From assembly GCF_002884495.1 (NCBI RefSeq), contig NZ_KZ614145.1, positions 1,564,423 to 1,628,422 on the forward strand: a DNA stretch of 64,000 bases, written 5' to 3'. Below, piece after piece: positions 7,109-9,433 of this stretch. Under the pieces are notes generated by a model. It was given only the letters and a program-made list of their open reading frames with translations. It was not told where the DNA came from and did no database searches. This DNA comes from Rummeliibacillus pycnus. GTDB taxonomy: Bacteria > Bacillota > Bacilli > Bacillales_A > Planococcaceae. The first letter of the stretch is position 1, and each line of letters begins with the position of its first letter. The translations under genes and the position numbers were made by a program.

Positions 7109-7666
7109 TTATATCTTGAATAAGATTGGCATATTTTCTATCTTTTTTCTCCAGATCATGTGGTCATACCCTTCACCCCAAAAATCTTTTAAAAAGTAAT
7201 CAGGCTTACCGAATTTCTTCTTCCATATCTTCTGTGCATTTGTATATCCACTATCAAGATAAAATTCTTTTATTCCTTTATTCAGCAAGGTAATATACAT
7301 GACATTCAAGAGCAAATTACCTATCCCTTGTCTCTGATAAGTAGGGAGGACAAATACTGTCCCTATCTCTACAAGCTCTTTTAATGCCCCGTTTATGCCT
7401 TCATTAATCAAGTCGCTAGCAAGACCATATTCAATAGTGCCTATAACTTGTTCATTAACTAACGCTAGCAGAAAGTAGCTTTTTGCTCCATTACTTTCAA
7501 AATCCATATTAAGATACTTAATTTTATTTTGTATCTCATTTTCAATTTCATTTACTTCATCCATTAACCCCTCATTCGCGAATGTATCTGAAATTACTTT
7601 TCTGAAAAATTGATGCAGTTCACCTTTATCGTCAATTTTTGGACGCCTAATCTCTACATTGTTCAT
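7109..7666 (-). CDS. GNAT-family N-acetyltransferase
   Basis: A 185-residue acetyl-CoA-dependent acetyltransferase. The C-terminal half carries the acetyl-CoA binding segment VFVLPTYQRQGIGNLLLNVM (Q/R-x-x-G-x-G/A loop), followed by the helix and strand FYLDSGYTNAQKIWKKKFG typical of motif B. The start is supported by AAGGAGG 11 nt upstream. The gene stands alone. The substrate is unknown. Confidence 0.85.
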   Translation of the reverse strand: MNNVEIRRPKIDDKGELHQFFRKVISDTFANEGLMDEVNEIENEIQNKIKYLNMDFESNGAKSYFLLALVNEQVIGTIEYGLASDLINEGINGALKELVEIGTVFVLPTYQRQGIGNLLLNVMYITLLNKGIKEFYLDSGYTNAQKIWKKKFGKPDYFLKDFWGEGYDHMIWRKKIENMPILFKI

Positions 7667-7938
7667 TTGATGATCTACCTCCTTACTTACAACAACTAAA
7701 GTCTAATTTCAATAATGTTTTTATAGGCGATGAATCAATTTTAAGTCACTAGAGTGCCACCAGTTAGCTAAAGAATAAGAAAAGAACTGACATTTTGTTG
7801 AACCTAAACTGATGTACAGTAACTTTCAAACTTTATAAACTCCTTATTTCTATTGTATTAGTTCAACTATACATACTATTCAAATTATTAAATTTATTTT
7901 ATACTAAATAAAAATGGAATTAGAATGGAGTGATTTAT

Positions 7939-7992
7939 ATGATGTTTTCTCCATTATTTGAACAAGATGTACCAACAATTCTTCTTCCTTAA
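7939..7992 (+). CDS. 17-residue leader peptide ahead of the EamA exporter
   Basis: ORF MMFSPLFEQDVPTILLP with a TGGAGTG ribosome binding site, ending 61 bp before the EamA start. Its stop codon TAA lies inside the first arm of hairpin 7987-8019. The last sense codon is proline, a residue that slows termination in several regulatory leader peptides such as TnaC. The placement strongly suggests a regulatory leader rather than a functional peptide. No experimental support exists here. Confidence 0.6.
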   Translation: MMFSPLFEQDVPTILLP

Positions 7993-8049
7993 CGGTAGAA
8001 GAGTTTTTCTCCGTTAAGGACATAGATTTCTATGAAAAACGGAGGAAAA
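7987..8049 (+). promoter_or_regulatory. Two mutually exclusive hairpins: possible translational attenuator
   Basis: Arm 1, CCTTAACGG (7987-7995), pairs perfectly with CCGTTAAGG (8011-8019), extended inside by AGAA/TTCT. Alternatively TTTTTCTCCGTT (8004-8015) pairs with AACGGAGGAAAA (8038-8049) over 12 bp with one G-U pair, burying the GGAGG of the EamA gene. A small CATAG/CTATG hairpin (8021-8034) fits inside that second form. The two forms cannot coexist, so leader translation could set access to the ribosome binding site. Confidence 0.6.
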
Positions 8050-8053
8050 AATC

Positions 8054-8926
8054 ATGAGCAATAAAGTAGTTGGCGCATTATTTTTATCACTTGCCGCAAG
8101 TATTTGGGGCGCAATGTATGTTGTCGTAAAAGTCGTAGTTGATGTTGTTCCACCTTTGGAACTTGTTTGGATTCGTTATGTGATTGCTGTTATTGCACTT
8201 AGCATTATTGGTATTTCCTTGAAGCAATCATGGAAAATAGCTAAAAAAGATTGGTTGATCATTTTTCTTGTTGGTCTAATTGGTAATACAATATCGATTG
8301 TCACACAAGAAACAGGCACGATGTTGTCAACTGCTCAAATGGGTGCGATCATTACAGCAACAACACCTGCTTTTATGGTCTTATTTGCACGTTTTATTTT
8401 AAAAGAAAAAATAACGTTTAAAAAAAGTTTCTCCATTTTGTTAGCAACAATTGGAGTTGTCATTATTGTTGGAAATGGGCAAATTGATGTGACGCAACAA
8501 TTAGGTGGACTCTCTTTATTGATCGCTGCGTTAACATGGGCACTAATGTCCGTGTTCGTTAAAAAAATTCCTAGTCATTATTCACAAATTGTGGTTACGA
8601 CCTATTCATCTATGATTGCTGTTGTCTTGTTGACTCCATTTGTTCTACCAAAATTAAATGCTTTAGATTTATCGAGCATTTTGGACCCAACAATTTCTGG
8701 TGGTTTATTGTATTTAGGTATTGTTTCAACAGCGGGTGGTTTTTTATTGTGGAACAAAGGCCTACAATTACTGAATGCTTCTAGTGGTGGATTATTCTTT
8801 TTCTTCCAACCGATTGTTGGAACCTTTTTGGGTTGGTTATTGCTAGGAGAGACAATCGGAATTTCTTTTTGGTTAGGTACCATTTTAATTTTTAATGGCG
8901 TTTTTATTGTTATTAAAGATGAGTAG
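8054..8926 (+). CDS. EamA/DMT-superfamily exporter
   Basis: A 290-residue protein with ten hydrophobic helices arranged as two EamA repeats (residues about 5-140 and 150-288). The N-terminal signature is LAASIWGAMYVVVKVVV and the second repeat carries ALTWALMSVFVKK. Such proteins export metabolites or drugs across the membrane. The GGAGG site (8041-8045) overlaps a possible regulatory hairpin, so expression may be controlled at translation. A terminator follows at 8944. Confidence 0.88.
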   Translation: MSNKVVGALFLSLAASIWGAMYVVVKVVVDVVPPLELVWIRYVIAVIALSIIGISLKQSWKIAKKDWLIIFLVGLIGNTISIVTQETGTMLSTAQMGAIITATTPAFMVLFARFILKEKITFKKSFSILLATIGVVIIVGNGQIDVTQQLGGLSLLIAALTWALMSVFVKKIPSHYSQIVVTTYSSMIAVVLLTPFVLPKLNALDLSSILDPTISGGLLYLGIVSTAGGFLLWNKGLQLLNASSGGLFFFFQPIVGTFLGWLLLGETIGISFWLGTILIFNGVFIVIKDE

Positions 8927-8976: not shown

Positions 8977-9165
8977 CATCAATCGTGTTGTAGCTGTTAC
9001 CAATTCTAAATTCGATACAGTAGGTTTACTGCTACTTAAAGTGAGAATATTACTTTTAAAGGGGTTCAATCCTTATTCAAACAGATACCGAAAATGGATT
9101 ATTAATCGATGGTGGTAATAAAGGCAAATCATGTGGATTATATTGATATTGGAGTCAAACTAATT

Positions 9166-9203
9166 AAAAAAGAGGAACCTTATTAAAAGGATTCCTCTTT
9201 TTT
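9166..9203 (-). terminator. Terminator of the cold shock gene
   Basis: AAAAAAGAGGAA (9166-9177) pairs with TTCCTCTTTTTT (9192-9203). The T-run is present in both directions, but only the csp gene is close enough to use it. Confidence 0.8.
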
Positions 9204-9232: not shown

Positions 9233-9433
9233 TTAAAGTTTTACAATGTTTGCAGCTTGTGGTCCGCGTTGTCCTTCTTCAACTTCGAATTCAACTTTTT
9301 GACCTTCTTCTAAAGATTTGAAACCGTCGCCTTGGATTGCTGAGAAGTGAGCGAATACGTCTGCTCCGCCTTCAACTTCGATGAAACCGAAACCTTTTTC
9401 TGCGTTAAACCATTTTACTGTACCTTGTGTCAT
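9233..9433 (-). CDS. Cold shock protein (CspA family)
   Basis: A 66-residue single-domain RNA chaperone with both nucleic acid binding motifs: RNP1 KGFGFI and RNP2 VFAHFS. The length is exactly that of Bacillus CspB/CspC/CspD. The start has a GGAGGT site. The mRNA leader is about 140 nt long, with a strong promoter at 9579-9607 and a 22-bp hairpin at 9487-9545, in line with post-transcriptional control known for csp genes. Confidence 0.95.

Follow-up and report, generated by a model that had tools for sequence, protein, structure and literature searches.

The EamA-type exporter gene studied here is preceded by a short ORF whose peptide, characterized by the motif LFENDxP, is deeply conserved upstream of about 110 EamA exporters. 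Together with the RNA that follows it, this leader probably constitutes a four-arm translational attenuator of the erm/cat type which is switched on by nascent-peptide arrest between the x and the P of LFENDxP. At the level of sequence, this reading builds on a conserved peptide, three co-varying helices, an exclusive linkage to EamA genes and a predicted switch geometry. The first-pass annotation of the locus had proposed mutually exclusive helices through which leader translation sets exporter translation. Our data support a translational switch of this kind, but the earlier reading missed arm 0 (7977–7985 with 7997–8005), and its logic is reversed by the relatives.

The leader peptide and its linkage to EamA genes

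Positions refer to the window, i.e., the whole stretch of 64,000 nucleotides that was analysed. The leader and the exporter gene comprise the following features:

7900–7905, plus strand: TATACT, putative −10 element of a promoter for leader and exporter, tentatively assigned by sequence inspection
7927–7932, plus strand: leader ribosome binding site (RBS) GGAGTG, with 8 nt from GGAG to the leader ATG
7939–7992, plus strand: leader ORF MMFSPLFEQDVPTILLP-stop, candidate arrest peptide
7954–7974, plus strand: conserved motif LFEQDVP (family LFE[NQH]D[VQ]P), based on conservation and the accessibility peak
7969–7971 (Val, P site) and 7972–7974 (Pro, A site), plus strand: predicted stall position, based on the accessibility peak 12–14 nt past the first nucleotide of the Pro codon
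8054–8926, plus strand: gene for an EamA (DMT superfamily) exporter of 290 amino acids (Pfam EamA, E 3e-46)

The leader ORF comprises 17 residues, ends with a Pro codon followed by TAA, as previously noted, and is located directly upstream of the exporter with a Shine-Dalgarno (SD) sequence of its own, for which relatives have an equivalent site. The TATACT element occurs at the same position in close relatives (L001–L004). Conservation at the peptide level implies that the leader is translated. The F, E, D, and P of the motif are identical in all of 100 non-redundant loci, and the motif codons vary synonymously (six codons for L, four for P, two for D). Residues C-terminal to the motif are variable; a Pro directly before the L and an aromatic residue three positions upstream of it are common. 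At one locus (L104) the motif directly abuts the start codon (MLFENDQP), so that arrest there would need just seven residues, as in drug-responsive leaders; the nascent chain at the predicted stall comprises 7–13 residues in most loci. Two distant exporters (L062, L064) are preceded by the variant leaders MKQTRYECDVPGACRS and MMQHSRFERDVPGSFVS, respectively, suggesting [FY]ExDVP as the core motif.

All close relatives of the exporter possess a short ORF with LFE[N/Q/H]D[V/Q]P 60–95 nt upstream, and the leader is present in 109 of 127 gathered homologues, the leaderless ones being the distant ones. It occurs in many soil Bacillota and spans Bacillaceae, Planococcaceae, Paenibacillaceae, Alicyclobacillus, one member of the Lactobacillaceae, and a pair of genomes from a second Bacillota class. 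When 399 Bacilli genomes were searched with the motif pattern, the reversed pattern serving as background control, all leader-like short ORFs were located upstream of an EamA gene, and none preceded a non-EamA gene. The remaining short-ORF pattern matches differed in their residues or lacked the leader layout and were discarded as chance, a similar background being obtained with the reversed pattern. The leader thus precedes EamA genes in many Bacilli families, and the exporters concerned are as divergent as about 45% identity (estimated from bit scores). A phylum-wide search returned mostly chance matches and two true leaders in another Bacillota class, both before EamA genes. In the two genomes outside the class Bacilli (L169, L170), a c-di-GMP-I-GGC riboswitch is present on the opposite strand, close upstream of the leader-exporter unit (L169:1832–1914 and L170:1719–1801). 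At two further loci (L115, L116) the leader motif is located upstream of a different EamA subfamily; one of them (L116) has lost the intergenic arms, with 35 nt from stop to start, and probably represents a relict or a rearrangement.

The exporter contains two EamA domains (Pfam PF00892, two stretches, E 3e-46) and thus belongs to the EamA/DMT exporters. It is encoded in a Rummeliibacillus-like genome of 3.85 Mb, has its closest relative in R. suwonensis (89% identity), and occurs in two of four genomes of the genus that were searched. A PDB sequence search revealed no relatives, and no close characterized relative was found. Inspection of exporter neighbourhoods in relatives for substrate hints likewise yielded nothing beyond lineage-specific synteny. 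The GNAT-family acetyltransferase gene divergent to the leader (7109–7666, minus strand) is not kept beside the exporter in relatives. Downstream, a strong inverted repeat at 9165–9203 (AAAAAAGAGGAACC...GGATTCCTCTTTTTT) separates the exporter gene from a convergent cold-shock protein gene (9233–9433, minus strand) and looks like a bidirectional terminator. Plasmid copies with leader occur in Priestia, B. badius, and Niallia, and the leader is unannotated in those plasmid records that have gene tables; a homologue on a Selenomonas plasmid is without leader. Several plasmid copies together with the absence of conserved neighbours suggest that leader and exporter form a portable, resistance-like unit.

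Competing helices around the exporter RBS

Four RNA arms were delimited between the motif and the exporter start codon:

7977–7985, plus strand: arm 0, consisting of the leader codons that follow the motif immediately; partner 7997–8005 (helix A), based on co-variation
7986–8005, plus strand: arm 1 region; 7986–7995 and 7997–8000 pair with arm 2 (helix B), and 7997–8005 with arm 0 (helix A)
8004–8020, plus strand: arm 2; 8007–8020 pairs with arm 1 (helix B), or 8004–8015 with arm 3 (helix C)
8038–8049, plus strand: arm 3, which holds the exporter SD sequence GGAGG (8041–8045); compensatory pairs with arm 2

In helix A (9 bp) arm 0 competes with arm 1. Helix B consists of 13 bp formed by 7987–7995 (CCTTAACGG) and 7997–8000 with 8007–8019, and helix C of 12 consecutive pairs, including one G-U, between 8004–8015 and 8038–8049, whereby the exporter SD sequence is buried. 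The 13-bp hairpin at 7987–8019 and the 12-bp pairing of arm 2 with the exporter RBS had been described in the first-pass annotation, and we recovered both. Helices A and C are thus in competition with helix B, and the RBS resides in arm 3, as in a translational attenuator. Folding of the leader region is much better than that of shuffled sequences (z −4.0 and −5.0), and a helix of at least 12 bp to the SD sequence arose in 6 of 5000 dinucleotide shuffles. Two features of the window temper the switch model: the energies of A plus C (−17.9 kcal/mol) and of B (−18.1 kcal/mol) are nearly equal, and when folding starts at the leader ATG, it is leader codons that sequester the RBS. In Rummeliibacillus and Lysinibacillus, the 5′ codons of the leader (7946–7953, TTTTCTCC) are complementary to the exporter SD sequence (11 bp in L001), a pairing that is possibly a lineage-specific extra lock.

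All three helices co-vary. Since MAFFT did not align the most divergent leaders reliably, co-variation was assessed in an alignment-free manner by comparing the complementarity of each locus's own arms with that of arms swapped between loci (33 loci less than 75% identical; 5000 permutations). The resulting z-scores were 9.5 for helix A, 10.0 for helix B, and 4.9 for helix C, and none of the 5000 permutations reached the observed complementarity for any helix, the three tests sharing arms and therefore not being independent. In an alignment of 54 sequences, helix A exceeded shuffles and every slid register in covariation score; helix B was too invariant there to be informative and draws its support from the diverged loci. 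Double-sided changes in helix C include AACGGAG:CTCCGTT, CCGGGAG:CTCCCGG, and GACGGAG:TTCCGTC. Helix A of relatives is long and wholly re-written in sequence, as exemplified by the arms GUAGUUAUUCU/AGAAUGACUAC in Peribacillus (L015), GUCCUUCAUCUC/GAGAUGAAGGAC in L061, and GCUUGCUCC/GGGGCAAGC in L104. Co-variation in relatives had been put forward earlier as a check on the proposed switch, which was to be abandoned if compensatory changes or a conserved leader peptide were lacking; neither applies, given peptide conservation and co-varying helices.

Ribosome position and the direction of the proposed switch

SD accessibility was computed for 100 loci with successive lengths of RNA hidden under the leader ribosome. 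Mean accessibility is 0.06–0.08 when the RNA is free or translation has just begun, peaks at 0.37–0.39 when the Pro codon begins 12–14 nt ahead of the first visible base, and is again 0.06–0.08 with the ribosome at the stop codon. The profile of shuffled intergenic regions is flat near 0.24. In the window, the corresponding values are 0.01 for free RNA, 0.91 for a stall at DVP, and 0.00 at the stop codon; it should be kept in mind that exposure at the predicted stall averages 0.40 over the loci and not nearly 1. If the P-site codon is placed the usual 16 nt from the ribosome edge, the peak corresponds to a P site occupied by residue x and an A site occupied by Pro. By computation, the RBS is thus exposed only when a ribosome resides inside the leader, which implies that the exporter would stay off with an idle leader and likewise upon normal termination, and that only a halt between x and P of LFENDxP would switch it on.

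We propose that, by default, arm 0 pairs with arm 1 and arm 2 with arm 3, such that the exporter RBS would be buried. A leader ribosome halted by the nascent chain it carries (M...LFEQDV), its A site holding the Pro codon, would cover arm 0 only; arm 1 could then capture arm 2, which would free the RBS and allow the exporter to be made. We infer the arrest itself, its codon (to within about one codon), induction, the kind of inducer, and the substrate of the exporter. The inducer would most likely be a small molecule, either a naturally produced antibiotic or a metabolite that is toxic, that binds to the ribosome or the nascent chain and is removed by the exporter. That the inducer is itself a substrate of the exporter appears to be the simplest reading.

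The geometry is the same as in trp-like leaders, and the Pro codon falls exactly into the predicted A site, both of which would fit an attenuator responding to amino-acid starvation, where the ribosome would halt at ordinary control codons for lack of a charged tRNA. We nevertheless regard this model as improbable because the leader has no run of a single codon, because the invariance of F, E, D, and P alike is the signature of a peptide and not of a codon, and because an exporter would be an odd target for starvation control.

A slightly lower probability is assigned to the model of the first-pass annotation, according to which arm 1 is covered by a ribosome that pauses at the Pro-stop, leaving arm 2 to bury the RBS and turn the exporter off, whereas an idle leader leaves it on. 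Helix C is indeed the best fold with the ribosome at the stop codon, and the RBS is closed in this state, as had been anticipated (0.00; mean 0.07). Idle RNA, however, is closed already and not open as had been assumed (0.01 in the window; mean 0.08 over 100 loci). Only a ribosome upstream of the stop codon, at the conserved DVP, opens the RBS (0.91; mean 0.40), which inverts the postulated direction of the switch. Moreover, leaders of relatives end in LP, RP, LS, RF, CF, HP, RD, or HM, so the Pro-stop is not the signal; what is conserved instead is the mid-leader LFENDxP. Finally, a switch at the stop codon would leave arm 0 without a role despite its co-variation.

Even less probable is a leader that merely provides constitutive translational coupling or RNA stability without responding to a signal, given the invariant peptide motif, the three competing helices, and the closure of the RBS during normal termination. 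The least probable model is transcription attenuation with arms 1:2 or 2:3 acting as intrinsic terminator: U-rich stretches near arm 2 are present in a few relatives (e.g., L057), but the window hairpins are not followed by a U-tract, a terminator scan called none, and the conserved target is the SD sequence. Neither classic terminators nor amino-acid control codons were retained as explanations.

Relation to known leaders and biological significance

Arrest at LFENDxP would place the EamA leader mechanistically next to ErmBL, ErmCL, and the cat leaders, with which it shares a short leader and competing hairpins and would share a stall in mid-leader that frees the downstream RBS. It differs from them in its peptide, which is dissimilar beyond an Asp near the stall, and in the downstream gene encoding an EamA exporter. 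ErmBL stalls at Asp10 in a peptide- rather than codon-dependent manner (PMC8274638). In E. coli, the toiL uORF of topAI-yjhQ represents another example where RBS occlusion is relieved by ribosome stalling within a uORF (PMC12121999); toiL responds to stalls at several codons (PMC12121999), while in the EamA leader only one motif and one exposure peak are conserved. Control of a drug exporter by leader ribosome stalling in a Gram-positive organism is documented for bmrB-bmrCD of B. subtilis (PMC4191407), which, by contrast, is regulated by transcription attenuation and encodes an ABC transporter (PMC4191407). The small-molecule-sensing arrest peptide TnaC contains an essential Asp and a Pro and is arrested at the stop codon after 24 residues (PMC8429421). 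The EamA leader shares with it the Asp, the Pro, and a loose F-x-x-D resemblance; differences are the chain of 7–13 residues at the predicted stall and the lack of a conserved Pro-stop. With its N-terminal LFENDxP and variable C-terminus, the peptide did not group with the ErmBL, ErmCL, or TnaC families when published motifs were compared by reading.

An Rfam scan of the window gave only chance matches below the gathering threshold, none of them over the leader region, and a scan of 18 loci gave no match over any leader. Likewise, the open-access literature (subscription papers being outside the scope of the search) contains no description of the LFENDxP motif or of leader control of EamA/DMT exporters. 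The leader peptide is therefore without prior description in Rfam or the open-access literature, while the type of regulator as such is known from erm and cat.

We see an even chance that LFENDxP is a minimal arrest peptide of as few as seven residues by means of which the ribosome directly senses the substrate of the EamA exporter, the two forming a portable sensor-exporter unit across Bacillota. If our model is true, it adds an undescribed family of arrest peptides with a sharply defined motif and a predicted stall codon, and it brings control by a ribosomal sensor to an exporter superfamily that is among the largest and least understood. As the ribosome would be the sensor, identifying the inducer would at the same time show what these EamA exporters naturally transport, a link that is amenable to testing with simple reporters.
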